A stretch of 26,726 nucleotides of DNA from a virus, in the IMG/VR virus record IMGVR_UViG_3300045922_000721, positions 1 to 26,726 of that record. One strand, 5' to 3'. This document shows, in pieces, positions 177 through 23,741 of this stretch. The notes below the pieces were generated by a model. The model had not been told where the DNA came from. It did not search any database and saw only the letters and a list, made by a program, of their open reading frames with translations. Within the stretch, counting starts at the first letter, position 1, and each line of letters begins with the position of its first letter. Position numbers and translations under genes: made by a program.

Positions 177-767
177 TTAGCACATGGAAATTCTTACAGT
201 GTAAATTACCTCAATCACTCTGTTCAAACTTTTTTCAATGGGGGAGAAAATGGCATGAGTCAGCAGTTTTTCCTGAGATGGCGTTGCCCCAAAGCTTTTT
301 AAGCCAATTTCATCAAAAATAAATGCGTCTTCAACGTTGGTTGCGTCGTCAAATGCATTTTGCCCTGATGGTTCTGCATATTCAAGGGTACAAGTGACTA
401 TTATATCCGAAAACAGTGTTGAAGGTACATGACGAACCACAATGTTGTTTCGCGTGGGATCAGTGTTTCGTGGATCAGAATCATCTACAATTTTTTCATA
501 AGTTTGATTGTAAAGATTTGCATCCAATCCAGTAATGTTTGGTGGAAAATAGGAAATTGTTCCAGTTCCACTCACAGTTGCACCACCATTGCCAAACACC
601 ATTTTAGAAATAAACCCTTCCGGCTCACGAGACAGTGCTTGAGCAATAGCAATGCTCATGTTTTCAAAATGCACGGCATTTTGCTTTTCCAGCAAAATTT
701 CCCCGGTGTTTGGGTCTCGTATAACAAACGACCCTTCAATTTTGGGGTTGACTTGAATTTGGTTCAT
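177..767 (-). CDS. Probable baseplate/tail structural protein, 196 aa
   Basis: A complete gene with AGAGGA 10 bases before its ATG. The N-terminus has a beta-hairpin-like segment (SFVIRDPNTGEILLEKQN, residues 13-30). A Gly-rich stretch follows (VFGNGGATVSGTGT, 57-70), and the C-terminal third (FDEIGLKSFG, 151-160, then a region rich in beta-forming residues ending VIEVIYTVRI) looks like a compact beta domain. I see no signal peptide, membrane segment or catalytic motif. It follows the giant baseplate protein and a 45-residue gene and overlaps the latter by 32 bases. In T4 this part of the cluster encodes outer-wedge and tail-pin proteins (gp8 to gp12), so a peripheral baseplate role is reasonable, but I cannot equate it with a specific T4 protein. 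The start of the 45-residue neighbour resembles residues 13-30 here. Confidence 0.65.
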   Translation of the reverse strand: MNQIQVNPKIEGSFVIRDPNTGEILLEKQNAVHFENMSIAIAQALSREPEGFISKMVFGNGGATVSGTGTISYFPPNITGLDANLYNQTYEKIVDDSDPRNTDPTRNNIVVRHVPSTLFSDIIVTCTLEYAEPSGQNAFDDATNVEDAFIFDEIGLKSFGATPSQEKLLTHAIFSPIEKSLNRVIEVIYTVRISMC

Positions 768-880: not shown

Positions 881-888
881 TATTTATT
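881..888 (-). promoter_or_regulatory. Candidate T4-type late promoter element (AATAAATA)
   Basis: The minus strand reads AATAAATA, a full match to the NATAAATA form of the late promoter reported for T4-like cyanophages and 7 of 8 to T4's TATAAATA. It overlaps the stop codon of the giant gene and precedes the 45- and 196-residue genes. A start about 6 bases downstream would leave almost no leader for the 45-residue gene but about 107 bases for the 196-residue gene. In AT-rich DNA such an octamer can occur by chance. Confidence 0.3.
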
Positions 889-3800
889 ATATACTAGTAT
901 TACCGGTTTTTAAAAAATCACTTACATTGTTTTGATTATACTGAATGCCCTGATTTTTTGCCCAATTTTGAGTGAACTCGGTTGGAAGTTTTGCTGATTC
1001 TGGCAAACTCCACACCGTTGCTCCGCCAAAGTGATTTATATTGGTGCTGGTCCAGTCAAACTGCACCGCAGTTACAATCACACTGCCAGGATAGTTTGGT
1101 GTGGGGCTTGCAAGTGGCGGTGAATTCAATATCACAGTGGTTCCAGAAAGAACATAATCACGTCCTTCAACAAGCACTGTGGTTCCAGCAAAAACATAAT
1201 CAAACACCTGTGCATTCCATTCAAACTTTACAATTTCCACTATCACTCGATTATATACTGGGCTGGGAACATTGAAGGTAACAAGCGATCCGTTGCCGTT
1301 ATATACCGCAGTTGCAGTGGCATATGGCGTGCCAAACGGTGAATGGTCGACACTGCGAACCAAATTTCCAAAAACGTAATAACGATTAACTGGATTGTAA
1401 ACAGATGTTTCAAACGACACAATTTCCCCACCTATCAATATTTTGCTGGGGTTGTATTTTGTTTCTCCGGTTATTGGATCCACGCCATCTGGTGTTTGCA
1501 CAGCAAATGTACTCTGCCATTCCAACGGAATTTGTGAATTTTGATTTGCTTGTATATCCGCAGAGTTTGAGAACACTGATGTACGCAAATTCAGTTTTTG
1601 TTCCTCGCTCAGTTTCCAATATGTCCAATTTGGTTCGGCTCCAGTTGATGTGGTATATTGCAACCAAGCAACTGGCTGTGCTGCTGGTAAATCACTCCAA
1701 GTTGTGATAACAACTCTAGCAAAACTTCTTATTTGTATTTCTGCGCCCAAACTAGGTGCCATAACAAATGAAATCTCAAATGTTCCGTTGAAGATCAAGT
1801 CAAAGTCCACAATTCTTTCTTGTCTAACTCCGTTTACAAACACATCCACTGCATCACTCAAACTGGTGATTGGTATTTGGGTTAACCCTGCTGTTGAGAA
1901 TTGTGTAGTAACACCGTCGCCAATTAACGTAATTGTGTCAATGTGCGCATCTTTAAACACCACAACATTTTCTTGGTCTGTATCCCAGGTGTAATTTAAA
2001 TCCCAATTCATAATATCCCAACCGTATGCAACTGATGTAACGATATAATCGCTTGCTAGAGTTTTTTGTTTGCCGTTTACGGATACAATGATGTGATTTG
2101 GGGTGCTTGGTGCTTGTGATATTTGATAAACTGCTGGCGCGTTTCCTTTTTGCGTTTCGGTTCGAATTGAGCTTGTAGCTGCATTGCTGATAGAATATAT
2201 TACTATCTCATCGCCTGCTTGCAATTGGTTGTTGGGGTCGTCAAATATTATTTGGTTTGGCGCGGATACACGGAACCAATAATTTTCTTCTAACACCACT
2301 AGCACTTCAGAACCCAAAGCAGGAGCAGATGGAGTAAAAAACTCAATAATAAAGTTTTCAGTTGGTGCGGGTGGTGGAGGATTTGGTCCCACGGTGTAAT
2401 CCACGCCTTGTGTTTGCAATACGCCATTTACATATACTTTCACATTGCTGTTAACAATAGGATCAAATGTTAATGTAAACAAGGTTTGTGTGCCAGTGCC
2501 TGTGAAGTAATTGGTATCAGCGCCTCCTAGACGTTGCCCGTTTCTAAACACAAACAACTGAGTTTGATCTGCAACAAGGGTAGAAATGTTTTGCACTAGA
2601 TTAAATGTTTGATTTCCGCCAATAGCTGTTTCCTGTTGCCTTCTCATGTCTGAAATTGTTCCATTTGTGACGTCAAACGAGTCAATTTTAACCAACCCAG
2701 TTGCAGGAGTTGATAATGCTGTATTCCATGTTGTTTGATTTGGCAATGTTCCTGTAATTATAGTGGATACTGGAATTCGAACTCCATCCGCAGTTGCACG
2801 AGATTCGATCATTGCAGTGTAACGTCGACTTACAAATGATCGGCTGACTACCGTACCCGTTCCTGCCCATGTACCAATTTGCCTTCCACTGCCACCCCAT
2901 CCAAACAACAATATTTCAATTGACTGGCCAGAAGATGGAGGTGCTGCAAATTGCAATTGACGATTGAGCAAATCCAAACTCCATCCAGTTACAATCAATA
3001 ATCCATCCACAAACACCATTACACTTTGTTCTGATTGGGGTGCTTGCTCAAATGCAAATTGCGTGCGAACGCCGTCGCCAACTGCTCGGATAGTTTCTAT
3101 TGGCAATTCCCCATTACTCCACGATGTATAAACAGAAATTTGCAATGGCGATTGAGTGCGAACTTGTGCTCGCTCTTCTGGTTGATTTGGACCATATTGT
3201 GGACGCAAGAAGTCATAACCATCAACTCGAATGTCCCATGCATTTAGCGGACTAGGTGCAAAAGGTGCCACTGATATTTTGATTTCGTCTCCCAATGCCG
3301 GCGCAATTGCAAATGTAACATTGTTACCTGCAACAGTATAATCTGTTATCGGTGTTTGCAACATGTTGTTGACATACACAATCAAATTATCAAATGCTGG
3401 AACAGCAACTGGATTTGTCAATGCAAACACAGTTGATACCCCGTCACCTTCAAATACAAAAAGATCAGGAGCAATGCCGCCATGCAATAATATGTCATTA
3501 TAAAAGTCGATAAAGATAGTGGGTGTGTCCCAGCTGTTTATTGCATCCCATAGAAAATAGTCCCAATCTAGCGTTTTGTTAAACGGTCCACCATCAACTA
3601 CTGTGCCGCTAAATCCACAACGCGGAATTAAGTCAAGTGCTGTTTTAGAAACTTGTCCCGTAGTTGGTAAATAGTATCTCAAAATTCTTTCCAGGCTTTC
3701 TAAGAATCGATATACTTTTATGACTCCGCGGTCGTTGGTAGGGAAGTCTACTACTAGTTTAGGTAGTATAGAAATTTCAATATTATCAGATACAGCAGGC

Positions 3801-6800
3801 GCAATTACAAATGTAACAGTATTACCTGACAATGTGTAATCCAAATCAAACGTTTGTAATATGCCATTCTTTTTAACTTGAATGGTGTTGTTGGATGCTG
3901 TTTGTTGCATGGTTAATGTAAATGCCGTGGTTACGCCATCGCCTACAAAATACATTTGTTCCAAATATGAAATTGCATACTCAGATGCAAATAGATCCCG
4001 ATAAACTGTGCCATCAAAATAATTGACTCTTGATATATTAATTGGATTCCACAATGTGGGGAACGCTTGAACCAGTGTTTGTAAATTATACACTGTTTGG
4101 TTTTGAATAGTTGCAATTTCCAATACGACTGGTGCATTGAGATTTACTAAGTTGTTTTGGCTATCCCAATTATTGGTACTCCATCCATTTTCATCCCAGT
4201 TTGCCAAATCCTCTGAATTTAAGCAGCTTACACGATCCAACAAAATTTGAATTCGATTGCGGCGAATTAGATCTGGATTGGTTTGATAATTTGCAAACCA
4301 GTCATTCCACAAGTTTTTTGAAGTGATCAATGCCTGGCCAATAGCTGGCAGTTGTCTCTCAACAATTTCAACAAGTGACCCAGCTGCTGGCGGTAGTAAG
4401 AAGATAACAGAGCTGCCTTCAACATAATAATCAAAGTTAAACGTTTGTAACAGCGAATTAACACGCACTTCTAAAAGTGACACGTTAATAATGTTTTCAT
4501 TCATCGCAAAAATTGTATTTCCACCGTTTGCTGTGAATGTTTGACTTTGACGAGGAAAGTTCAAAAACAAATCTAAAAAGTCCACATTGAATAATGTGCC
4601 GGGATTGTTTGTAGCTTCAAAAATTACAATATCATCAAGATCTGTTGGGCTCAACACTCGATATGAGCCAGTTTCAACATCAAAAAATACTGGCTTATCA
4701 AAGTCAGTAACATAAAAAGGTGCATTTTCGAATGCGCTTAGGCTGCGAACAAAGTTTCGAACTTTTACATGATATGGTTTGATTTCATCAACATATTCCA
4801 ACAAGGCTTGTGTTAGATCTGGACTTACCAATGCGCTTTGTGTTAGTGCTTGGCTGTAACCTGTAATGGAAATGAAACTGGTTTTAAATGCCCAATCCAC
4901 GTATGCTTGCTCAGAAAACACGTAATTTACCATTTTAAAAAACAATTGGTTATCTTCTAAGTTTGTTAGCACACGAGATCGCAAGTGTTCAATCAAATAA
5001 TAAAGTTCCAAACTTCCGTCGCGTGTGGACACAGCATTGCCCAATTGTAGTAAGTTACCAAATGATGCAACTGGTAATTGGTCCCATCCAATTAAATCCC
5101 AATCAAACAAATCCCAGTTGATACCAAAAATAGAGTTACCCAATTCTGGATCAAATGTCAATCCAAACACATTGCCACAGTTTTCAAAAAACTCTGGTTT
5201 TAGATTTATGGTACCATCTTGTTTTGCTACTGTTGCCCAAAACAAGTTGCCGGATTCATTTTTCTGTAGTTGTGTCCATTCCCATTTGCCATTACCATCG
5301 TTGTTTACGATTACAATGCGACCAGGTGCAAATTCCAAAGTATCTAAGTCACGTGTTTGTCTATTTGGGTATGACACAATAGGGGGCGTTGATGGATCTA
5401 TTCCATCTGCGTACCAATCCACAAACTGGTAGAAATCTGCAGTATTATATCGTTGATAGTTTATCAACCTCGGACCTTGAGAAGTGTAAAGCCAGAGGCT
5501 CCAGAAATTCGCAGTTTCTTCGTTACCCAGAACTAATACTTGCATGCCCGGCACAATCAAACCATTGACAACTTGATTATAAAAATCATTAACATCTGTT
5601 ACAACTCGTTGATTAGGCAATGCAGTAGCAGTTGTAAACGGCAGCGGCGTTGACTGATTGATGTTGATATTCCAGCCTGGACGATCTACATCCAACAACA
5701 ATTGGTTTAGTAAATGATTTGTTATTTGTACAAATTCTTGTCGAGCTTTGCATTGATTTCGAAACCATGTTTGGCGAGGACGAATTAAGTTTCCGTATTT
5801 TTGCACCTCACTTAAAGTGGGGTCTGGAACAGATCTGGGAATCCATACGTCCTTATTGTTGTTTGCCAATCTAAATGTAGCATTAAATGTTGCACCGGTG
5901 CCGCCAACCAATCCAGTAACTGCAAACGGCAACGCAGGTGTTTGCGAGTATATTCCTGGGTTCAATATTGATACATTGATTACTGTATTGCCAGCAACTG
6001 TTACTTCGAGCATAGCAGGGCTTTGCGTTGTTCCACCTATTACTTGAGCAACAAATGTGCCATTATTATAGCCAGTTCCTACTGTGTTGATCTCAACTGT
6101 GTTTGTTACAAATTGCAATTCATCAAACAGATTTTGGGTTTCACCGTACTGATCAAATCCAACCAAACTGTCTCGTAGTTTGTTCCATAACGAATTCTCA
6201 ATAACTGAATTTGGATCGTTTTCACGATGCAATACCCATTGCGAATGCCAGTTGCTGTCTTTGTTTTTCAAATTCCAGTTGATTTGAAGTGTGGTGTTTT
6301 CTTTCAGGAACGGATATATTCCGCTGAATATCGCAGCATTTTCAGAAATAGGGGCATACCAAACAATTCCTGCGCCGGTGGGATTTTCAATTTGATTTGC
6401 TATTGCGCGAACAGATATTTTTCGGAAATCTACATTTGGCACAGTGTCTTTGTTTTTTACCCAGAAATAATAGAAGGTTTGTAATCTTCCCGTTTGTATA
6501 TTATACTCCACGCCAACATTGAATTTTTCAACATTCAATGGTGTGCCTCTTCCTTTTGGTTCTGGATTATTTTCTAAATCAGCATACTGAGTTGGCGTGA
6601 GAGTTGTGCGCACCCATTCATATACATCAACTGATGATTTTGGGGTAGTTCGGCCCCAATAAGATCTGCGATAATTGTTGTCTTCTTGTTCGTAATCATA
6701 AAACCGCACAGTGCTCAAATCCCACCAAGTTTGACCCACTTGTTGCTTGCCCCAAATGTTTAGTTGTGTTCCAGCATTGACTTTTGACTCAAAATCAGGG

Positions 6801-9800
6801 GTGTTGTAATTTGCAGGGTCTATATTGGATATAAAATTAAGTTCTCGCAGTGCAGTTTGAGATATTTTTCCATTATACGGATCAATATGTTGCATGTAAG
6901 TGAGAATTGAATTTGATTCGCGATCATATACCAAACCATTGTCGTAATTTTCAGATGATATGCGGGAGTTTTGTCGTCGAACCAGAGTCCACGCATTGTT
7001 TTGGTATTCAAATACTGCCCAAATTTTATTTCCATTAATGCTAAAATAGTCGGATGCATCCATCACAAAGGCTCTGCTACCTTCAACAGGAGAAACATAA
7101 TTTAGAACCATATCAGTGTGAGTGTTGAATTTAACTTCGCGCAAGTGATAGAATTTTAAGGGAACCAAATCTGACAATATTGTGGGATCATAATAAATTG
7201 TTTTCAAATTTGATGCAGATATCACAACAAAACGGGTTCTGCCAGGCACAATTCGTTGCCACTCTCTGGAAATAAATGCAAGCCAATCCCCAGGCTCAAC
7301 TGGATCAGCAAACCCTAACACGCTGCCTTGTTGACTTGCAACTGTTGTGGTTGCAGCGTTTGTGCCGTTTCCACCCAACAAAGAATAAACTGTATTGTCG
7401 GGCAAATCAGCATAGTCGCCTGGAAACAAAATGTCAATGTCACGTATTGCGTGTGAAACAGTTGCAAAAGTTACATTAAACGTTGCGCCAGATCCTGCTG
7501 ACGTTCCTGGCACCAAAATGCTGGATGCAAGAGGTTGCGGCAGTGGCACAGGCGACGGAATCCACTGACCGCGTGCAACAATGTTAAAGTTTACCACAGC
7601 TCCAACATTGTTTACTTCTGTTACCACAAGTCGAAGTGGTTCGATTGTTATCATTGCACCTGGATCAATTTCAATTACGTCTTCAATTTGATATCCAGTG
7701 CCAGCGTTTGCCAATACAACAGTGTCTGCTGATACATATGGAAGCATATTTACTGCAAATTGTACGCCAGCGCCTGGAGAAAGATCGGCAGTCACAATGT
7801 TTCCTGGCGGATCAATGTTATAAGAGCCCGGTGTGTTTAGTGTTACGCTGACTACAAACCCACCCACTACAGTTACATCAACTGTTGCAGGTGTTCCGCT
7901 ACCTCCAATTAACGGTATAGCATTATACGTGCCGTCAGTGTAACCAGAGCCAGAACTCAAAATAGAGATGCTGTCCACATATGTTAGAGAAACGTTATTA
8001 ACTCTGAATGTTGCAGGACTTCCACCTGCCACAACTGTTCCGCCGTCTAGTGTTAAAATATCACCGGGCACATAATTTTCGCCCAAGTTTGACATTTCAA
8101 AAGATTCCACACCAGTAGTAATCTGAATATAATTTTGCGGAGTGGTATTGCTTGGTAATGTGCCGTTTAAATTAACATACCCGCTAAAATAAAATTCTCC
8201 AGATCGAAGTATTTGTGACCATCCTTGTAATTCAGACTCAGTTAGATATATCCATTGTCCTTTTGTAGAAATTTCAATTCTAGCAGCATTGGCTGGTGCA
8301 GCGTTAAATTGTATTTGCGTACCAACTATTGTGTATTGGGTTGTATCGACAATGTTACCATCAACTGCTACTACAATTTCATTGTTAGAAGAAAAATCAA
8401 ATCCAATATTAAAATTTGTTTGTATTCCGTCGCCTTGATAAGATGTAAATCCAGTAACAAACTCATTTACTACTAGTGGACATTGAAAATTAGGATCTGA
8501 CACCAACACCGCGCGAATATTTTTGTCATTGTCAACTATTCGCGCAACTGTCCAGTCACCCAAGTATTCATTATTAAATGTTGCATTTGCACCGGGTGAT
8601 TGATAAATCCAAAGTGTTTCGTTGGGTTGAAATATCTGCGATTCTGATTCTAGTGCAACTTCTAATTTCGGTGCAGTAAAGTCAATTGGTTTTAAAATAT
8701 CTTGCACAGTGAAGTCAGCATAAGTGGTTTCATTGGCTAACACAAATCCAGCATTTGGAAACTTATTAGTCGATGTGTTAGCACGAGATGCATTTGCTGA
8801 TAGAGGATCAATTAAGAAAAATGGTAGAAGCGAGTTGGGACGCACTTGCCAGAGCTTGCTTGTAACCGCTACATAATCGGAATTGGGCTGTGATTCAAAC
8901 TGCACTCGCAATCGCAAGCCTGTCCCAGTTCCTGGCCAATTGGTTCCTTGCAGTGCATTTTCAGTTATGTCATAAAAGCCCACTAACGGAACAGCTCTAT
9001 ATTCTCCTTGGTCTGACACTGCAACTTGTGATACCTCTCCAATGGAATTGGTTTGTATTACAAACTTTGCAGTAACATCTGGTGTGCCAACATTTAGATA
9101 AACTGTATATGTTTGGTTGGGCTCAAAATTTGATCCAGCGGATACAATCACTGGTAATTTTGCTGGCAAGGTTGATGTGTCGTATGCTATTCGATATTTT
9201 TTAGATATGAAATCAAACACATTGATAACATCGTCATTGGGCGAGTCAAGTGTCAATGCTTGCAATTCTGCACGATATTGTGCGGGGTCACTAAAAGTAG
9301 TAAATGCTTCTATTTGAGTTTGCCACTCTGCCGGTTCAACAATATTAAATTGAATCAATTGCGGATCAGCTCGTTTGATTTGTGCAGGTAAATCCAGTTC
9401 TAGAATTTGATTTTTTTCGTTGTTGCCGTAACTTCCAATTCTAAATCCCCACTCTTCATAAAAATCAAAATTGCTCAAATCAAATATAAAGTTAGATCGC
9501 AATAATTTGGTAAGTGAATTTGCTGTACCTTTTTCATGTATCATGCCTTGATAAAAATTCACTTGACTTTGGTCTGATATTATAAGTGTATTCAAGTAAG
9601 ATCTTTTTTCATATCCAATAGTGTGATTGGCAAAATCTGCAAGCTCGCGTGTTTCCACTTGGTTGTTCAAGTCAAAATATCTACGGAAATCATTGGCAGT
9701 TTTTTCAAAATTGGGTCGAATTTCATTTTCAGTCAAATAATAGCCTGGTGCATCCAAGCGCCCGTTCCACCCCAATGCTTTGCTTCCACTAAATGTCAAT

Positions 9801-12800
9801 CGATCTTGTTGTTGATTATATAATGGATCATATATTACATCATTGAACTGAGTAACATTATTAAAAAACACTGCATTTTCAAATGTTTTCAAATGCAAGC
9901 GCACTGCAAAAATTGCATTTTCAATACTTGGTTCATTGACTTCGATCGTCAATTGATTTTCAAAACGTGTGACATTAGTTACTTTAGGATTGATTAAAAA
10001 TCCTTCACGATTCAAAATTGAGTAAACACCGTTGACAATTTGTTCAATTGGTTGCACTTGACCAAACGCTGCTTGATAATTCACCTGCGTTGCAAATGGC
10101 GACATTGCCAAAATAGAGTTCGCCGGAAGACTATTCAACGTCCAGTTCAAAAACTCCTCAACATTTAGGTCCCAGTCCTGCAGGCGAACTTCCCCAGTAA
10201 TGGGGTCAGTATTGACCTGTGTAAATCTCCATCCTTCTGAAATCAACCAACGCTGATAATTGTAGATAAAGTTTACTACGTTTTGATAACCAATTAACAC
10301 AGTGCCATATGGCACTACAGAAACAGGATTGCCCGGCGCTGGGTCTAAATATTTTATTGCTGTAATTGCGGGCTGTGGTGCTGGATTGTTTTGTTTTTTC
10401 CACACACTAGGATCAAATTGATTTTTTGATTGATGCGCTCGAACAGCTTGATATACATTGCCTTCAAATATAACTGAGTCGCCAATAATATATGCAGTAG
10501 ACGGCGCCCATGCTGGAATGCTGTTGGCCAATGTGCCAACTCGAATTGTGGTTTTTCTGCCACCCACTGCCGGCAATATGGTATTGAAGTTTGGATTGAT
10601 TTGATCGTATCCAAACACTTGATAGCGATTGCCACCCAAGTAACGCAATATTATGCCAGAGTAAGATGCTTCCTTAATGCTTTGGCTACTGTAAAGCTGT
10701 ATTTGCTGATCTTCTAGAGGCACTTGACCAAAGCTTTCGGAATCCACACTTAACGTGTTTGCATCAATGTATGCTCCCATTTTGTGACCCAAACGAGCAG
10801 TCATGCCACGCACATAATTTCCAAATTGATTGGTTACAGAAGTGTTTAGACTTTGCAGATAATGGCTGATTATAGTTTGCACACCAAGCAAATTGTTATC
10901 ATTTTCAGAGTGAACACTTAACACACTGTTTGATGGTCGACGCCCATACAAGCTGTTTATATACTGAGTAGTGCTTTGTAAATTGTTATAGATGCTATTT
11001 TGATTTACTGTGTCCCAATTCAAGTCCACAAACGATGCTGGCATTGCTAATGCAAGAAACGCCATCATAGCATAACCAAATTGATCAGATCTACGCCATG
11101 CTAACTCAACTGGACCAATATCTCCAAATTTCCAGTCAGTGTTTAGAAATTCAGGGTTTACATATTTTGGAACAATGCCAGATTGAATTGGATCCAACAA
11201 TTGTCCTGCTTGATCAACTGGCAATATGCTCAATAACTGAGGACGAACAAATCTCTTGTCGATCCCAGCACGAACGCCTTGTCGTATTCTTCCATCGCGT
11301 AAATCTTGCCAAAGCTTTGTGTTCAATGATCCGTAAGGCGCTGGGCCATATTCCATTTCCCACCAAGACGGCTTAGATGCAAAGCCCAACATCTGCCATG
11401 GTGCAATATGCGGAGCATCAGTGTCAAAGTAAAAATAGTAAATATTGCGCCATGAACCTTGTAGTTCGTCTCCCAGCAAACTAGTAATGCCTGTATAGTT
11501 CCAGCTCCATGCATTTTCAGGCACATAAGAAGTGTTGTTACGGTATATTGCTGACTGCTGTACACTCCAAAGCTCAAAGCTGGGTTGTAATATTTTGTCG
11601 CACTCTGTTTTAGAATAGTTAGTGGATCTCCATTTTCCCGGAACAACATCATACCAAGACAACTGAGGTAGATAATTGTTTTTGAATTTGCTGTTTATGG
11701 AATTGTAAATCTGTGTTTCCAATTCCAAAACAATTTGATCACGGAAATCACCAAAAGTAGGTAGCAAGCTGCCGTCGTGACCTCGAATATATTCAACTGG
11801 ATTTAAAAGTGTAGTATCTAAAAATATTTCTGGTACATAGTTTGGAAGTATGCCCAAATACGCACCAGTTGGAGGAATAAACTGGCCAGCTCCACCCGCA
11901 GTGGAACTCCAAAATGCAAATTCACGAGTTTTGCTTAAATTCAAAGATTTCATAATTTCTTCGAACCATACGCCTGGCGCCGAGCTTTCACCGAATGTGC
12001 CTTTAGCAAAAAATTGATTCATTCGCTGTATATAACGATTTTTGAATTTGTTATATTCTCGTTGCACATACCGGTTAGCTGTAAAAAAGTTATTTTGATC
12101 TCTGCCAAACAGCAACATTGTTTTCAATAGCGTTGCATTGTGTTGCAGTATTTCGTCTCCCAAACTTAAGTTTTTTGGAGAGTCTCGATAGGAGTTTCGG
12201 CTGAAGAATGTTCCAGGATTGGCCGTATTAGTAACTAGTGCCAAATTGCGCTCAATAATTTCGTTAAATTGAGATGCAAATTGAGTTTTAGCAGCAATAG
12301 ATGGTTCCTGATTGTTTGCATTTGCAGAAAGATTGACCGGAATTTCAAAATTACCACCCACTGCATTTTCATTATATTCGCTGTAAATTTGTATTACGTC
12401 TTTCTCTGCCACTAGCCCTGGTACAAAAATAATCACAGTGGATTTGGGTTGCTTGCTAATTGTGTATTGAGTTGGTGATAATGTACGACCATTTAACCGA
12501 ATTTCAACCGGTTCTGAAACTACCCAAGGTAATACAATATTTTGATCCGCACTTAGTATAACCAATTGGTTTACATAACGTTGAACAAACGAAGACTCCT
12601 TTAAATACCATCCATTGGAATATCGATCCGTAGCATGATTTAATCCTTGTAATTTATAAAAATAATATCCATCAATGGGTTGTGTTCCATTTGAATAACG
12701 GTCTGTTGCTAGATTCCACTGAAAATTAATTTCACCATTTGAATCAAAACTCAACCTCTGTTGCAATACGGGATCAATTCGTCCGTTTCCAGTAGCATAT

Positions 12801-14923
12801 GAAAAAATTACGTTGCCGCGGAAATTGGAAACTGGATAACGACCTCCATCTTGCAAACTAACTCCAATGTTGTTTACTGGATTAGCATCGTACAGTTGAA
12901 AAAGCGGAGCTTGCGGAATTTTTTCTTTTGCTTGTGCAACAACCCACGATGATCCATTATAATATACTTCTCTCGAAGCCAAGTAACCTTGTTTTACATA
13001 AATCACTTCGCCGTTGCTTGGCGATCCGTCAAGTTCTATGCCATCTGTTTCCAACAACAAGTTTATTATGCCGTGGCTAAAAATTCCATCCACTCGATAA
13101 ATGCGATTGTTTTGAGAATTGTTAGTGGACGACACCACTAATATGCGGGTTCCGTCAACAATCTGTGCGCCGTTGTAAAATACTTCGCTCACGCCATTTA
13201 CCGTGTTTGTCCAGTTAAATGATCGAATGGTGAATTTTGTATTCTGCTCTGAAAATTCCAAATTAAATTCAGCACCAGTACCACCAGTTAGTCCTGTTAC
13301 TGACACGGGTTGCACTGGAATTTCCGTGTAACTTCCTTGGTTTACTATTTGTGCAGCAATTACTTTTCCAGATGATAGTGTTACTTCAATTTGGGCAGCA
13401 GTTCCATTTCCGCCAACTACTTGTACAATAAATTTACCTGCGCCGCCGCCGTTTGTATATCCACTTCCGCTATTAGCTATTTGAACATCAGTTGCAATAT
13501 ACGGCACAGACTTAACTGGATTTAGTGAATTAACAAAACTTGTTACTGGATCGGCCATATCGTTGACAACGATATCAACAAACCCTCGGAAAATTCTTCC
13601 GTAATTATACAATTCTAAATCACGATCAAATTCAATAATTGGGCGTACTGCTTGTATTGCAGATGATCTCTCACTCTCGGTTAATACATCGTAATGAAAC
13701 CAACGATTGACTCTGCTCCATGGATTGTTGTTTCTGGCAGTTCTTTCAATTGTAATGTAATCCGGTACATCCTGTCGTATTAAAGGCAGTATTGGATCGG
13801 TAGGACTCCATGCTGCACTATCCCACAACGATAAATCCCATCCACTAGTATCAAGTTCTCCATCAAATGCCAATCGTATTTCTCGACCAACTCCTTCAAC
13901 AATTGACTCCTTCTGATTGTAGATGCTGGGGGCAACATCATATGCCCATCGTATTTTCTGACCGGAGCTGAATTGATACCCATTTACATCTAAAAAGTTT
14001 TTTTGACCAATTATATCTTCAGTGACATTCAATTGTCGATATGTTAATACTTCAACAAATGTGCCAGCAATCAACGGCTGTGCAAACTCCACTGCAAAAC
14101 CTGATTGCGACTGAGTAACTTGATAGTCCGTTGTGATTTGATTATTCAAAAACACAACAACATCGCTTGCTGTTTTTGTTATAGACGGCGCATTTACTGT
14201 TAATGTAGTTTGGGTTGCAGTTTGTGATATATAACCAATTGTACGAAACGCAACAATGCGTATGACAGTGTTTTCACCAGGCGGCAATGTAAACGCAACA
14301 CTTCGATTGTTAATGGTGTAATCAACACCAAGAGTTAATTCTACATTATCAACAAACACCTTTATGTCTGATTGAGCAACAACCGGTGTGTTGAAATTAA
14401 ACATCGTTGTAGCTCCATCACCCACATACTCCACAACAGGATACCCTGCCCATTTTGAAATTGGTCCGTTCTTTACCCAAAAATATTGCTTGTAATTTTG
14501 TAATTTGTCTAAGTCAATGGGCGGTGCCCAGGAATAAGATTGTGTTTGAAACAATCGGTTGTGATTGTTTGTTAGTCCGCCGTTGAAACGAATTGAATTA
14601 ATCAAGTCGTCATAAAAAATCGAATAGTCAATATTCAGGTCGGAATTCAAGCTGATACCAGCTGGAGTGAGCTGATAAAATTGACGATCGTTATTTATTT
14701 CATTCAAATAAATGTCGCTAGTGTTGTAATACGGGGGAATGCCACCAGTAAATGCATTGAATTTTTGACTTTGATTGGGCTGAAACAAATAATCAATTGA
14801 GCTACCAAATACTTTTTGCCAACTGGGCGTGTTGTATGGCGCAGGCAGTAAACTTGTGACACGGCGTGTTTGTATATTGGGTTGATCTGGATTGATTACT
14901 TTGTTACTTGAATTTTCTTTCAT
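887..14923 (-). CDS. Giant baseplate-associated structural protein, 4678 aa, in gp7 position
   Basis: One uninterrupted frame of 14,037 bases directly after gp6, with which it overlaps by 4 bases (ATGA); AAGAG lies 7 bases before its ATG. In T4 this place is held by gp7 (about 1030 residues), followed by gp8. No obvious signal peptide or membrane segment is visible. The protein is modular: (1) an N-terminal region to about residue 160; (2) beta-sandwich-like units with the pattern GDGxxTxFxL, then VxVNxxLQTxxxDY, then VxFxxAPAxGDxIEI, first near residues 161-230, again at bases 8245-8455, then in a dense series at bases 1042-4556; (3) Gly-rich GSGYT/GGxGA units at bases 13250-13500, 7330-8110 and 5865-6095; (4) a Trp-rich core near residues 1165-1220 (APWQMLGFASKPSWWE); (5) a possible carbohydrate-binding module near residues 1469-1511; (6) a YVDEIKPYHVKVR motif near residue 3375; (7) five Trp-Asp triplet motifs. 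Assignment to the outer wedge is from position; the beta-rich repeats suit a long rigid or branched virion component. It may combine gp7 with gp8 or fibre functions, since no separate gp8 was recognised. Confidence 0.75.
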   Translation of the reverse strand: MKENSSNKVINPDQPNIQTRRVTSLLPAPYNTPSWQKVFGSSIDYLFQPNQSQKFNAFTGGIPPYYNTSDIYLNEINNDRQFYQLTPAGISLNSDLNIDYSIFYDDLINSIRFNGGLTNNHNRLFQTQSYSWAPPIDLDKLQNYKQYFWVKNGPISKWAGYPVVEYVGDGATTMFNFNTPVVAQSDIKVFVDNVELTLGVDYTINNRSVAFTLPPGENTVIRIVAFRTIGYISQTATQTTLTVNAPSITKTASDVVVFLNNQITTDYQVTQSQSGFAVEFAQPLIAGTFVEVLTYRQLNVTEDIIGQKNFLDVNGYQFSSGQKIRWAYDVAPSIYNQKESIVEGVGREIRLAFDGELDTSGWDLSLWDSAAWSPTDPILPLIRQDVPDYITIERTARNNNPWSRVNRWFHYDVLTESERSSAIQAVRPIIEFDRDLELYNYGRIFRGFVDIVVNDMADPVTSFVNSLNPVKSVPYIATDVQIANSGSGYTNGGGAGKFIVQVVGGNGTAAQIEVTLSSGKVIAAQIVNQGSYTEIPVQPVSVTGLTGGTGAEFNLEFSEQNTKFTIRSFNWTNTVNGVSEVFYNGAQIVDGTRILVVSSTNNSQNNRIYRVDGIFSHGIINLLLETDGIELDGSPSNGEVIYVKQGYLASREVYYNGSSWVVAQAKEKIPQAPLFQLYDANPVNNIGVSLQDGGRYPVSNFRGNVIFSYATGNGRIDPVLQQRLSFDSNGEINFQWNLATDRYSNGTQPIDGYYFYKLQGLNHATDRYSNGWYLKESSFVQRYVNQLVILSADQNIVLPWVVSEPVEIRLNGRTLSPTQYTISKQPKSTVIIFVPGLVAEKDVIQIYSEYNENAVGGNFEIPVNLSANANNQEPSIAAKTQFASQFNEIIERNLALVTNTANPGTFFSRNSYRDSPKNLSLGDEILQHNATLLKTMLLFGRDQNNFFTANRYVQREYNKFKNRYIQRMNQFFAKGTFGESSAPGVWFEEIMKSLNLSKTREFAFWSSTAGGAGQFIPPTGAYLGILPNYVPEIFLDTTLLNPVEYIRGHDGSLLPTFGDFRDQIVLELETQIYNSINSKFKNNYLPQLSWYDVVPGKWRSTNYSKTECDKILQPSFELWSVQQSAIYRNNTSYVPENAWSWNYTGITSLLGDELQGSWRNIYYFYFDTDAPHIAPWQMLGFASKPSWWEMEYGPAPYGSLNTKLWQDLRDGRIRQGVRAGIDKRFVRPQLLSILPVDQAGQLLDPIQSGIVPKYVNPEFLNTDWKFGDIGPVELAWRRSDQFGYAMMAFLALAMPASFVDLNWDTVNQNSIYNNLQSTTQYINSLYGRRPSNSVLSVHSENDNNLLGVQTIISHYLQSLNTSVTNQFGNYVRGMTARLGHKMGAYIDANTLSVDSESFGQVPLEDQQIQLYSSQSIKEASYSGIILRYLGGNRYQVFGYDQINPNFNTILPAVGGRKTTIRVGTLANSIPAWAPSTAYIIGDSVIFEGNVYQAVRAHQSKNQFDPSVWKKQNNPAPQPAITAIKYLDPAPGNPVSVVPYGTVLIGYQNVVNFIYNYQRWLISEGWRFTQVNTDPITGEVRLQDWDLNVEEFLNWTLNSLPANSILAMSPFATQVNYQAAFGQVQPIEQIVNGVYSILNREGFLINPKVTNVTRFENQLTIEVNEPSIENAIFAVRLHLKTFENAVFFNNVTQFNDVIYDPLYNQQQDRLTFSGSKALGWNGRLDAPGYYLTENEIRPNFEKTANDFRRYFDLNNQVETRELADFANHTIGYEKRSYLNTLIISDQSQVNFYQGMIHEKGTANSLTKLLRSNFIFDLSNFDFYEEWGFRIGSYGNNEKNQILELDLPAQIKRADPQLIQFNIVEPAEWQTQIEAFTTFSDPAQYRAELQALTLDSPNDDVINVFDFISKKYRIAYDTSTLPAKLPVIVSAGSNFEPNQTYTVYLNVGTPDVTAKFVIQTNSIGEVSQVAVSDQGEYRAVPLVGFYDITENALQGTNWPGTGTGLRLRVQFESQPNSDYVAVTSKLWQVRPNSLLPFFLIDPLSANASRANTSTNKFPNAGFVLANETTYADFTVQDILKPIDFTAPKLEVALESESQIFQPNETLWIYQSPGANATFNNEYLGDWTVARIVDNDKNIRAVLVSDPNFQCPLVVNEFVTGFTSYQGDGIQTNFNIGFDFSSNNEIVVAVDGNIVDTTQYTIVGTQIQFNAAPANAARIEISTKGQWIYLTESELQGWSQILRSGEFYFSGYVNLNGTLPSNTTPQNYIQITTGVESFEMSNLGENYVPGDILTLDGGTVVAGGSPATFRVNNVSLTYVDSISILSSGSGYTDGTYNAIPLIGGSGTPATVDVTVVGGFVVSVTLNTPGSYNIDPPGNIVTADLSPGAGVQFAVNMLPYVSADTVVLANAGTGYQIEDVIEIDPGAMITIEPLRLVVTEVNNVGAVVNFNIVARGQWIPSPVPLPQPLASSILVPGTSAGSGATFNVTFATVSHAIRDIDILFPGDYADLPDNTVYSLLGGNGTNAATTTVASQQGSVLGFADPVEPGDWLAFISREWQRIVPGRTRFVVISASNLKTIYYDPTILSDLVPLKFYHLREVKFNTHTDMVLNYVSPVEGSRAFVMDASDYFSINGNKIWAVFEYQNNAWTLVRRQNSRISSENYDNGLVYDRESNSILTYMQHIDPYNGKISQTALRELNFISNIDPANYNTPDFESKVNAGTQLNIWGKQQVGQTWWDLSTVRFYDYEQEDNNYRRSYWGRTTPKSSVDVYEWVRTTLTPTQYADLENNPEPKGRGTPLNVEKFNVGVEYNIQTGRLQTFYYFWVKNKDTVPNVDFRKISVRAIANQIENPTGAGIVWYAPISENAAIFSGIYPFLKENTTLQINWNLKNKDSNWHSQWVLHRENDPNSVIENSLWNKLRDSLVGFDQYGETQNLFDELQFVTNTVEINTVGTGYNNGTFVAQVIGGTTQSPAMLEVTVAGNTVINVSILNPGIYSQTPALPFAVTGLVGGTGATFNATFRLANNNKDVWIPRSVPDPTLSEVQKYGNLIRPRQTWFRNQCKARQEFVQITNHLLNQLLLDVDRPGWNININQSTPLPFTTATALPNQRVVTDVNDFYNQVVNGLIVPGMQVLVLGNEETANFWSLWLYTSQGPRLINYQRYNTADFYQFVDWYADGIDPSTPPIVSYPNRQTRDLDTLEFAPGRIVIVNNDGNGKWEWTQLQKNESGNLFWATVAKQDGTINLKPEFFENCGNVFGLTFDPELGNSIFGINWDLFDWDLIGWDQLPVASFGNLLQLGNAVSTRDGSLELYYLIEHLRSRVLTNLEDNQLFFKMVNYVFSEQAYVDWAFKTSFISITGYSQALTQSALVSPDLTQALLEYVDEIKPYHVKVRNFVRSLSAFENAPFYVTDFDKPVFFDVETGSYRVLSPTDLDDIVIFEATNNPGTLFNVDFLDLFLNFPRQSQTFTANGGNTIFAMNENIINVSLLEVRVNSLLQTFNFDYYVEGSSVIFLLPPAAGSLVEIVERQLPAIGQALITSKNLWNDWFANYQTNPDLIRRNRIQILLDRVSCLNSEDLANWDENGWSTNNWDSQNNLVNLNAPVVLEIATIQNQTVYNLQTLVQAFPTLWNPINISRVNYFDGTVYRDLFASEYAISYLEQMYFVGDGVTTAFTLTMQQTASNNTIQVKKNGILQTFDLDYTLSGNTVTFVIAPAVSDNIEISILPKLVVDFPTNDRGVIKVYRFLESLERILRYYLPTTGQVSKTALDLIPRCGFSGTVVDGGPFNKTLDWDYFLWDAINSWDTPTIFIDFYNDILLHGGIAPDLFVFEGDGVSTVFALTNPVAVPAFDNLIVYVNNMLQTPITDYTVAGNNVTFAIAPALGDEIKISVAPFAPSPLNAWDIRVDGYDFLRPQYGPNQPEERAQVRTQSPLQISVYTSWSNGELPIETIRAVGDGVRTQFAFEQAPQSEQSVMVFVDGLLIVTGWSLDLLNRQLQFAAPPSSGQSIEILLFGWGGSGRQIGTWAGTGTVVSRSFVSRRYTAMIESRATADGVRIPVSTIITGTLPNQTTWNTALSTPATGLVKIDSFDVTNGTISDMRRQQETAIGGNQTFNLVQNISTLVADQTQLFVFRNGQRLGGADTNYFTGTGTQTLFTLTFDPIVNSNVKVYVNGVLQTQGVDYTVGPNPPPPAPTENFIIEFFTPSAPALGSEVLVVLEENYWFRVSAPNQIIFDDPNNQLQAGDEIVIYSISNAATSSIRTETQKGNAPAVYQISQAPSTPNHIIVSVNGKQKTLASDYIVTSVAYGWDIMNWDLNYTWDTDQENVVVFKDAHIDTITLIGDGVTTQFSTAGLTQIPITSLSDAVDVFVNGVRQERIVDFDLIFNGTFEISFVMAPSLGAEIQIRSFARVVITTWSDLPAAQPVAWLQYTTSTGAEPNWTYWKLSEEQKLNLRTSVFSNSADIQANQNSQIPLEWQSTFAVQTPDGVDPITGETKYNPSKILIGGEIVSFETSVYNPVNRYYVFGNLVRSVDHSPFGTPYATATAVYNGNGSLVTFNVPSPVYNRVIVEIVKFEWNAQVFDYVFAGTTVLVEGRDYVLSGTTVILNSPPLASPTPNYPGSVIVTAVQFDWTSTNINHFGGATVWSLPESAKLPTEFTQNWAKNQGIQYNQNNVSDFLKTGNTSI
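1042..4556 (-). repeat. Array of degenerate beta-sandwich protein repeats in the giant gene
   Basis: At least seven protein-level units of about 65-90 residues, each opening with GDG/GNG/GGN-x-x-T-x-F, then an I/V-x-V-x-V-N-x-x-L-Q-T-like strand, D-Y-T/V, and V-x-F-x-x-A/P-P-A-x-G-x-x-I-E-I. Approximate extents: 4350-4556, 3750-3965, 3258-3468, 2893-3098, 2283-2508, 1705-1946 and 1042-1312. Further copies lie at 8245-8455, 12376-12560 and 14236-14442. The motif is conserved better than the bases, as expected for old duplications. Confidence 0.7.
5865..6095 (-). repeat. Gly-rich GTGYNNG/GGTGA repeat unit
   Basis: Encodes INTVGTGYNNGTF, then VIGGTTQSPAMLEVTV, VINVSILNPGIY and LVGGTGATFNATF. 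The order of elements matches the units at 7330-8110 and 13250-13500. Confidence 0.6.
7330..8110 (-). repeat. Tandem Gly-rich GSGYT/GGxGxxA repeat block
   Basis: Several consecutive units: LGENYVPGDILTL with GGSPATFRV; ILSSGSGYTDGTY with GGSGTPATVDV; LANAGTGYQIEDVI; TSAGSGATFNVTF; and FPGDYADLP with LGGNGTNAATT. Each pairs a (G)xGY/NY turn with a later GGxGxxA strand. This is the densest stretch of this family in the protein. Function unknown; a beta-roll or stacked-strand structure is inferred from the Gly spacing. Confidence 0.6.
10389..10518 (-). other. Possible carbohydrate-binding (chitin-binding type 5/12-like) module
   Basis: About 43 residues of the giant protein: W-A-P-S-T-A-Y, then IIGDSVIFEGNVYQAVRAHQ, then F-D-P-S-V-W. 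The order W..Y..GD.V...G..Y.A...H....F....W is that of small CBM5/12-like modules, which stack sugars on exposed aromatic residues. It sits mid-protein between structural segments. I see the motif spacing; binding is inference. Confidence 0.45.
13250..13500 (-). repeat. Gly-rich GSGYTNG/GGTGA repeat unit
   Basis: Encodes IANSGSGYTNGGGAG, VVGGNGTAAQIEVTL, AAQIVNQGSY and LTGGTGAEFNLEF, matching element by element the unit at 5865-6095 although the two are about 7.2 kb apart in the same gene. Confidence 0.6.
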
Positions 14924-17900: not shown

Positions 17901-18399
17901 GCAAAAATGCATTATTTAATATCAAAACAAATTGATCAAACCAGTCTGGGTTGTTGGGATCATTCCAAAACACATTCAATCCATTTAAGTTTTGTCCCGA
18001 TGCATCAATAATATCGTCATCTGTGCTCACAGCGTCAATTCGCAATAATCCGCGTGCGGGTAAATTGCGACGAGGTTTATAACTTAAAAACTGTGCTAGA
18101 TTTAAAATACTTTCGCGGCGCTCAGCAGAATCAATAAAGTTTTCTCTAGAATTCAAATCCATGCGATACGCAAGACTTTGTCCCAAATATGAAACCAAAT
18201 CCAAAACGGCAATAAATTCCGATGAATTGATCCAGTCATTGAAGTCTTCTGGGTAATTTAAACGAACATAATTTACTAGGGCTGCTCGAATACTGTCAAA
18301 GTCATATGCATTGAAATTTACCTGAGTAAATGCTTGATAAATTGCAGTCCAGCTTTCACCAGCAAATAATTCGCTTTGTCTAACGCTTTGTGTGGTCAT
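14920..18399 (-). CDS. gp6: Baseplate wedge protein gp6, 1159 aa
   Basis: The N-terminal region (NYPEDFNDWINSSEFIAVLD near 48-67, then YLGQSLAYRMDLNSRENFID) is the signature I know from gp6 baseplate wedge proteins of T4-like phages; a baseplate J-like core is expected further on. gp6 dimers join neighbouring wedges and form the inner baseplate ring that rearranges when the sheath contracts. The gene follows gp25 with an ATGA overlap and overlaps the giant gene by 4 bases, matching the 25-6-7 logic. It is much longer than T4 gp6 (about 660 residues); the extra length appears to be in the middle, with additional beta-rich segments between roughly residues 450 and 900. Residues 849-860 (DSDFDGYVDNPD) form an EF-hand/dockerin-like loop with acidic residues at 1, 3, 5, 9 and 12 and Gly at 6. 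The C-terminal part (IHVQLATSVASIALVPLNEE) again looks like the conserved gp6 end. Confidence 0.88.
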   Translation of the reverse strand: MTTQSVRQSELFAGESWTAIYQAFTQVNFNAYDFDSIRAALVNYVRLNYPEDFNDWINSSEFIAVLDLVSYLGQSLAYRMDLNSRENFIDSAERRESILNLAQFLSYKPRRNLPARGLLRIDAVSTDDDIIDASGQNLNGLNVFWNDPNNPDWFDQFVLILNNAFLQSNQFGQPLKSVPFDGVTQHVYQINSIPSGFGVKTFSATVDGLELSFDVVNTTLTDDGTVSEVEPNPGTPISFLYRSDGNGFASPNTGFFFYFKQGTLGYTDYRLDFAIENRVLDVNTANINELDVWVQTVDDGGLPTQIWTKVPSVFGNNVIYNSISRNIRNVFEVVTRENDQISIRFADNRFGNAPTGIIRVLYRVSENAAFSINTQDLQSIVLTYGYINALGQSKTLTLTMGLTGPISNSAVSEGIEEIRRNAPRIFYTQNRMVNGEDYNVYPLTNNSALKVTAINRVYSGQSRYLDINDPTGRYQATNVFADDGIIFSNTDIGFAQVPINVALTSDEIIEGYIQPALQNQELLHFMLDKLKNNTNFPVGIAPNNPAAAAYNPWPATPVLRWKSSTNANFSSTGYFYIDTSPLGDNTNPTDPNTPALVGSVPLQNARSVIVPGAYVKFDNNTWVAVQSITDNGNGTFDNGQGKITLAATLPDGAKVVEVIPNFRPTLNSDEQTEIRTLLDGTPKQFAIYWNWFLQAWKTYVFVNETPSFDANNFKLLTLNSEVNSQINRQNGWVLLVSLSADGTQLYTFQTRGLQYVFESDKEARFWFANTLKSVNFESGNVNVDQIRVFAVNPSADTLTPIPAPFDSWDRTRFTGSALPNGDVNFNLLDPFIYRDGYIEPRRIQITFADSDFDGYVDNPDAFDQIVNSNYKTFWRRYVDQFGYRYYEPALDVRVRADAATLNPPALTPILQGEVVYLNSTELFYRALINNPTVISDLAPLESSEEYIARVGRAKLNFLWKHFASSDQRIDPAITNVVDIFVLQREYDTSLRQWVTTNAPIEEIPQPPTSFDLSIEFADLENIKTISDQLIYHPVKYKLLYGTRAPEELQAKFLVVKVPTTRLSDGEIKSGIIQAMNRYFESQNWDFGQTVYFSELAAFIHVQLATSVASIALVPLNEEGRFGNLYQIKLEADEMPISVATVNDIEIVNNLTETNLRVTR

Positions 18400-18818
18400 A
18401 GTTGTGTCTCATTTATTTGAAGTTCGTAATTTTTATTGGCAACAAAATCAGCAAAAAATGTTTCTACTACATCAAATGGGCGAAAATTACAGGTAATAGA
18501 TACTCGAATTCCTTGCTCTTGATTAAAAGTAAAAATTTCTGATGATATTAGTTGCAATCTGGGTTCCGAACGAATTACATTGTCAACTTCTGCTTTGATT
18601 TCTTCCAAGATTTCTTCCGTTAATGGTTCAAACAGTTTTTGCCAAATTGTTGTACCAAATCCTGGAAGCATCACTCTAGATCCCAATGGAGTGTAGAGGT
18701 GCAATAACACGTCGCGTTTTACCAAATCCAAATCATATGCCGTCCATTTTGGCGGGGTGCCTGCTGAGCTGTCAATGCCTCTGAAAAGCTTCTTCTTGCT
18801 GAAGTTTAAAGTAGCCAT
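18396..18818 (-). CDS. gp25: Baseplate wedge protein gp25, 140 aa
   Basis: The length is close to T4 gp25 (about 132 residues), and the protein shows the family pattern: an N-terminal arm, D-V-L-L-H-L-Y-T-P-L-G-S-R near 36-48, L-P-G-F-G-T-T-I-W at 51-59, and the helix LTEEILEEIKAEVDNVIRSE at 66-85 followed by two to three beta strands. The family (gp25/GpW, also TssE of type VI secretion) holds a wedge to the tail sheath and nucleates sheath assembly; despite an old 'lysozyme' label it is structural. It ends 4 bases into gp6 and begins 39 bases after gp5. The leader lacks a clear Shine-Dalgarno sequence and is AT-rich; ATTAAATA 6 bases before the ATG is one mismatch from a late promoter element but too close to act for this gene. 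Confidence 0.9.
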   Translation of the reverse strand: MATLNFSKKKLFRGIDSSAGTPPKWTAYDLDLVKRDVLLHLYTPLGSRVMLPGFGTTIWQKLFEPLTEEILEEIKAEVDNVIRSEPRLQLISSEIFTFNQEQGIRVSITCNFRPFDVVETFFADFVANKNYELQINETQL

Positions 18819-23438: not shown

Positions 23439-23741
23439 TTATCTTGCTATTCCGTTCAATCGATCTCGTGTTGCATATCGAATTGTAATTCCAGGTTTGA
23501 AATCCCAAATTGGATCTTTTATTTCATTCATATTCATATTTTGAAACACCCACCAATAACGTGGATCGCCATATACGTCAAACGCTAGCAAATCTGGGCG
23601 ATGTTGATATTTGCTCTCCAACGTATAAAAAACATCACTGTTGCTAAACGGTATCTCACGAAAATTAAAATACAATAAAAAAAATGATGATTGGGGGGTA
23701 GTGTAATATGGAGATTCTGATGTATAATTCACACGAGCCAT
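23439..23741 (-). CDS. gp53: Baseplate wedge protein gp53, short form, 100 aa
   Basis: Carries the gp53 core: an N-terminal Y-Y-T-T-P-Q-S-S-F strand region and, from residue 50, a LysM-like motif (DLLAFDVYGDPRYWWVFQNM, then I-K-D-P-I-W-D-F-K-P-G-I-T-I-R at 74-88). In T4, gp53 binds at the wedge-hub interface and helps lock six wedges into a ring. T4 gp53 has 196 residues; here only about half is present, mainly the LysM-like part. It lies 1 base after the tail-tube cap gene and 4 bases before the hub gene, so it is translated as part of the block. The pattern is strong for the family; dispensability of the missing half is inference. Confidence 0.8.
   Translation of the reverse strand: MARVNYTSESPYYTTPQSSFFLLYFNFREIPFSNSDVFYTLESKYQHRPDLLAFDVYGDPRYWWVFQNMNMNEIKDPIWDFKPGITIRYATRDRLNGIAR

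Follow-up and report, generated by a model that had tools for sequence, protein, structure and literature searches.

A giant of 4678 aa, encoded directly after gp6 in the 26,726-bp IMG/VR fragment analyzed here (the window, meaning this whole stretch of DNA), is by sequence comparison a further member of phrog_10938, a known family of RaK2-type jumbo phages. Its source is probably a jumbo myophage of the RaK2/121Q/Atu_ph07 type, in which it would be the wedge protein of the gp7 slot and replace gp7 as the outer wedge scaffold. We favor a gp7-like scaffold because the gp25-gp6-giant order is conserved, gp6 being the immediate upstream neighbor in 75 of 77 environmental loci, and because a putative helix-turn-helix with a KG motif was the only part of the protein, among 131 slices, to stand out, if weakly, against the gp7 core of cyanophages. 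The gene sits in the gp7 position, as stated in the initial annotation.

The giant gene, its neighbors, and its family

The ORF starts with ATG in the ORF listing of the window (the sequence near its start is CACGATGAAAG), and the single 4678-codon frame overlapping gp6 by 4 bases was found there as initially described. Such a frame is too long to be open by chance and thus represents a real gene; its GC3 is even and matches that of the adjacent genes. PHROG and Pfam HMM matches gave the order gp53-hub-gp25-gp6-giant, the upstream genes forming a T4-type baseplate cluster (Table 1). The hub has a VgrG3-like C-terminus, in contrast to RaK2 and CBB, for which a lysozyme is annotated at the hub gene. 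A small nucleotidyltransferase-like gene (PF01467, 24446-24994) stands at the head of the cluster; in Phosso, an adenylyltransferase heads its own baseplate cluster.

Table 1. Features of the giant and of neighboring genes. Coordinates refer to the window and residue numbers (aa) to the giant.
Feature	Coordinates	Strand	Evidence or remark
Giant virion structural protein, gp7 slot, 4678 aa	887..14923	minus	ORF; phrog_10938 E=0, 1449 bits
gp6-like baseplate wedge protein, 1159 aa	14920..18399	minus	phrog_10646 E=0; phrog_219 E=2.8e-22
gp25-like wedge protein / sheath initiator	18396..18818	minus	PF04965 E=2e-9
gp5-like hub, VgrG3-type C-terminal domain	18858..20885	minus	phrog_13211 E=8.4e-46; PF21277 E=2.4e-30
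gp53-like wedge protein	23439..23741	minus	phrog_7145 E=1.7e-21
Conserved 196-aa protein after the giant	177..767	minus	phrog_11259 E=1.2e-70
Conserved N-terminal block, aa 36-149	14477..14818	minus	29-39% identity in nine isolated jumbo relatives
T7-fibre-N-terminus-like repeats 1-2, aa 166-292	14048..14428	minus	self-HMM; PF03906
Glycine-rich module, aa 486-554	13262..13468	minus	self-HMM
Conserved core C, aa 590-1870	9314..13156	minus	41% mean column identity, 10 proteins
Small beta domain, aa 781-851, like fibre-docking XD-type domains	12371..12583	minus	structure match
CBM5/12 chitin-binding-type module, aa 1467-1514	10382..10525	minus	Pfam PF02839, structure match
Candidate gp7-type core, aa 1735-1830	9434..9721	minus	profile comparison, weak
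T7-fibre-N-terminus-like repeat 3, aa 2162-2218	8270..8440	minus	PF03906 best stretch; self-HMM
Conserved core D, aa 2606-3440	4604..7108	minus	second family-wide block
C-terminal array, T7-fibre-N-terminus-like repeats 4-10, aa 3463-4398	1730..4537	minus	self-HMM

The match to phrog_10938 was best over aa 803-3074. When two separate stretches of the giant were used in tblastn, each found 57 phage records, with the same host-genus tally and all below 60% identity; they included Atu_ph07, Phosso, PA5oct and its relatives, RaK2, K64-1, 121Q, PBECO4, CBB, GAP32, XaC1, SCTP-2, and Vibrio 2.275.O, among others. Family members such as RaK2 ORF070, CBB_236, 121Q 582, PA5oct gp355, Atu_ph07 gp180, and Phosso 294 occupy the same slot after gp6 and share collinear blocks, mostly at 25-40% identity, with the window giant. 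The latter exceeds the RaK2 protein (3326 aa) mainly in its linkers and C-terminal repeat array, and comes nearest in length to the proteins of Atu_ph07 and Phosso. The gp25-gp6-giant order was kept across the annotated isolates, and in 31 of 37 loci, the giant was followed by a gene for a protein like the 196-aa one (phrog_11259).

At least 598 stretches in IMG/VR were related to the giant. Among 80 environmental ORFs, 41 were complete within the DNA taken (2328-5151 aa) and the incomplete ones reached at least 6198 aa. In the cellular genomes of 84,980 species, the giant was found on five MAG contigs only, as one would expect if its carriers are virulent phages. The RaK2/121Q/Atu_ph07 group carries the giant throughout and the window gene is ordinary within it, so that the giant is not unusual; larger ones also occur in cyanophages. 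The published genomes examined label the family merely as "structural" or "hypothetical" protein, as is the case for the 4455-aa ORF58 of AP-J-162, a "structural protein" in its published annotation (PMC11242549).

The record is a metagenomic fragment, and in one relative (L071:8528-23292) the giant is covered by two long overlapping frames (frameshift or sequence error), which could suggest that two or more genes had been joined in a wrong contig. However, each of the nine aligned isolate relatives, among them Atu_ph07, PA5oct, RaK2, CBB, 121Q, and SCTP-2, has a single ORF (3323-4555 aa) with collinear blocks, and the 41 complete environmental ORFs reach 5151 aa. As the same gene is present in isolated phages, an assembly artefact was rejected as having next to no probability.

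Two other loci showed irregularities of their own. In K64-1 (NC_027399, L005:17899-27876), the giant ORF is intact in the DNA (3326 aa), but the annotation breaks it up into numerous short hypothetical ORFs and a 4.1-kb C-terminal gene, which is likely a misannotation. At L025:2840-18108, three ORFs (2613, 1419, and 907 aa) take the place of the single giant, which is broken around the variable linker.

Homologues are present in virions. Twenty-one peptides of CBB_236 were detected by mass spectrometry of virions (PMC5259590), as were 17 unique peptides of phAPEC6 gp245 (381.9 kDa; PMC7247149), which we counted as a homologue from its size and from its listing beside the baseplate wedge protein gp244. 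PA5oct gp355 is labelled ESI-MS/MS in its annotation. For homologues, a lack of proteins of this size in virions, which would have spoken against the initial annotation, was thus not observed.

Conserved blocks, modules, and repeats

The region spanning aa 681-1870 was modelled by AF2 with a pLDDT of 82 and a pTM of 0.72. Most of the core C model had no clear PDB match and found relatives only in BFVD, in a structure search that is poorly tested for large models. In PDB sequence searches with the complete giant and with each of the two cores (C and D), the chitin-binding module gave the only match. A strongly conserved, tryptophan-rich block with a confident model (10543-12163, aa ~920-1460) had no clear PDB match when searched inside a larger model, and may, judging from this prediction, hold a new fold.

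The possible sugar-binding module of the initial annotation proved to be a CBM5/12 domain at aa 1467-1514, an assignment that is well supported. It scored 25.8 bits with PF02839 (E=1.1e-5), 0.4 bits short of the cut-off of 26.2, and matched the chitinase A1 domain in the PDB sequence search (E=0.0098). In the structure search, the fold agreed with a Z of 7.4 and, for 46 residues with 33% identity, an rmsd of 1.1 A. The module may bind chitin or another polysaccharide. In Vibrio phage 2.275.O (L009:9941-13804), a CBM5/12 module sits in the gp6-like protein; chitin-binding modules seem to move between wedge proteins.

The linkers and the C-terminus are occupied by repeats and glycine-rich modules. 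Ten copies of a T7-fibre-N-terminus-like repeat of ~58 aa were found by self-HMM, together with at least three glycine-rich modules, of which the further copies lie at aa 2325-2389 and aa 2949-3014, in agreement with the several repeat families noted at first. The glycine-rich module is a mobile one, common to the window giant, the gp7-slot giants of cyanophages, and an insert in cyanophage gp8.

The small beta domain at aa 781-851 gave a model resembling CBA120 TSP4 (Z 8.8, rmsd 2.1 over 64 residues), residues 171-275 of the T4 baseplate chain 5iv5_A (Z 6.5), and T7-like tail proteins, the latter with a Z below that of CBA120 TSP4. This beta fold is common, and a function can thus not be deduced from it.

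gp8 and the question of fusion

The initial annotation proposed that the chain merges the functions of gp7, gp8, and the tail pin (gp10), and it saw no separate gp8. None was found in the window, where the giant is followed by just the 196-aa ORF; since the source record is a fragment, this absence is a within-window statement as far as this genome is concerned. When the 196-aa protein (P0011) was considered as a diverged gp8, profile comparison matched it neither to gp8 nor to gp9 or gp10. Six relatives with complete genomes and two long contigs from the environment had no match to the Phage-Gp8 (PF09215) or gp7 (phrog_964) HMM, and the same searches recovered a divergent cyanophage gp8 (E 5e-5) and T4 gp7 as controls. 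In the relatives, gp8 is thus absent or beyond detection.

A fusion by descent of gp7, gp8, and gp10 would explain the missing gp8 and is in keeping with these HMM results, with the size and modularity of the giant, and with the likeness of aa 781-851 to CBA120 TSP4, whose N-terminal domains were described as T4 gp10-like (PMC10253068). However, the fold of this domain is also that of a T4 wedge chain and of T7-like tails, and the giant itself had no PHROG or Pfam match to phrog_964, Gp7_helical, Gp7_5th, or Gp7_6th, nor any Pfam match to PF09215, T4_gp9_10_N, Gp10_D3, or Gp10_C. When 300-aa slices of the family profile were compared with T4 gp7, gp8, gp9, and gp10, nothing scored above the reversed controls except the glycine-rich module. 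The cyanophage gp8 profile (phrog_438) meets the relatives' giants solely over its glycine-rich insert, at about positions 185-301, and this insert recurs in other cyanophage proteins. The gp9/gp10 N-terminal domain was not found in the six complete isolates, and in PA5oct, it is gp358, a separate gene shortly downstream of the giant, that carries a Gp10 C-terminal domain.

Cyanophages also argue against a merger. Their gene order is gp25-gp6-giant-gp8, and their giants (phrog_2885, 4406, and 701), which are similar in size to that of the window or larger, reach 3495 aa in ACG-2014e, 4225 aa in ACG-2014f, where the protein is annotated as a baseplate wedge initiator, and 6378 aa in S-RIM2, in which we took as gp8 the gene annotated as a baseplate wedge subunit three genes after the giant. 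As these phages combine larger giants with a separate gp8, a giant in the gp7 slot need not be a fusion with gp8, and sheer gene length there should not be read as evidence of one. We therefore regard the merger as improbable; at the level of detectable similarity, gp8 appears to have been lost or to have diverged beyond detection, rather than fused.

The candidate gp7-type core and the proposed role

Like the window giant, the cyanophage giants lie between gp6 and downstream wedge genes, and the two share glycine-rich modules and a weak core-motif similarity, whereas the cyanophages have a separate gp8 and a gp7 core that lies closer to the N-terminus and shows a clear relationship to T4 gp7. 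Overall homology between cyanophage giants and the window giant was not found, and cores C and D, when compared directly with one cyanophage giant, gave nothing significant. The cyanophage core consists of a helical segment ending in FY..KGT..S...LF, close to the N-terminus in two of three giants; the same motif is present in T4 gp7 from aa 734, and a profile comparison of the cyanophage core with T4 gp7 gave E 3e-10 (probability 97%). Since these slot genes carry a recognizable gp7 core, giants in the gp7 slot can be gp7.

In the window family, NFYQGMIHEKGTANSLTKLLRS is found at about aa 1790-1810, and the K-G at aa 1798-1799 is invariant in 66 sequences. When the whole giant was scanned as 131 overlapping slices against the combined and cyanophage gp7-core profiles, the four slices containing this motif ranked 1 to 4 (E 0.0016-0.0075), ahead of the best reversed control (E 0.014), and with either the cyanophage or the combined core as target, none of 100 column shuffles scored as high, statistics that are somewhat weakened by the choice of the motif by eye before testing. 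The scores are close in strength to those that Det7 gp204, which is encoded beside gp6 and belongs to a baseplate-wedge family in Pfam, obtained against the same cyanophage sets (E 0.001-0.014), and the alignment spans only about 20-25 residues. Against the T4 gp7 profile alone, nothing was found, 32 of 100 shuffles being equal or better, and Pfam scans of the core slice returned no gp7-type family.

AF2 predicted a helix-turn-helix at the KG motif with low confidence. The isolated core model was poor (pLDDT 70) and had no gp7-type match in the PDB with Foldseek/VIA, which is not evidence that the folds differ. These results are suggestive of a weak relationship between the putative KG helix-turn-helix and the gp7 core.

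T4 gp7 (phrog_964) and the window giant share their genome position, the 4-bp overlap with gp6, and a likely role; they differ in that there is no sequence match, the giant is 4.5 times longer, and no gp8 gene follows it. As the giant fails the sequence test for the T4 gp7 family, we assigned it to phrog_10938, with a function that is probably gp7-like. In XM1 gp17, a 242-residue gp7 orthologue whose loops hold the tail spikes (PMC10457771), and in TssG, a small helical core joins two gp6-type partners and extensions carry receptor-binding parts (PMC10457771, PMC6300606). The likeness of the giant to XM1 gp17 and TssG is one of principle.

By this analogy, one giant per wedge would bind the gp6 dimer through the small helical core at aa ~1735-1830, in the manner of T4 gp7, XM1 gp17, or TssG, and would thus take over the place of gp7 as the outer wedge scaffold. 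The remaining ~97% of the chain, comprising cores C and D, the chitin-binding-type module, and the ten fibre-docking-like repeats, would form the baseplate periphery, with platforms to which tail fibres or spikes are attached and which possibly touch the surface. No atomic baseplate structure for this phage group was found in the open literature searched.

Alternatively, the giant may be a lineage-specific peripheral protein, such as a whisker anchor or a fibre hub, and a diverged gp7 may be encoded elsewhere. The absence of a significant sequence link to T4 gp7 alone and of a clear PDB match for most of core C would be consistent with this, and CBB and phAPEC6 bear additional tail whiskers to which no protein has been assigned (PMC5259590, PMC7247149). 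However, the adjacency of gp6 and the giant is kept both in isolates and in the environmental loci, the equivalent slot is that of gp7 in T4 and in cyanophages, and the KG core motif stands out. A purely peripheral role is thus a rather unlikely alternative to a gp7-like scaffold.

The assignment to the gp7 slot, together with a named candidate for the gp6-binding core, provides structural biologists with a definite prediction about the baseplates of jumbo phages, and prompts the question of how RaK2-type phages manage without a detectable gp8. As a tentative and rather unlikely extension, the outer baseplate may have been rebuilt in these phages, one gp7-derived chain of ~500 kDa per wedge doing the structural work of both gp7 and the missing gp8 and presenting a series of domains on which branched fibres could dock. 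If so, a single gene would define the whole baseplate periphery.

Finally, in Salicola phage SCTP-2 (L006:8633-17923), the gene before the giant, at the gp6 position, is 9.3 kb long and encodes 3096 aa, and the wedge gene adjoining the giant may thus also be enlarged in this phage.
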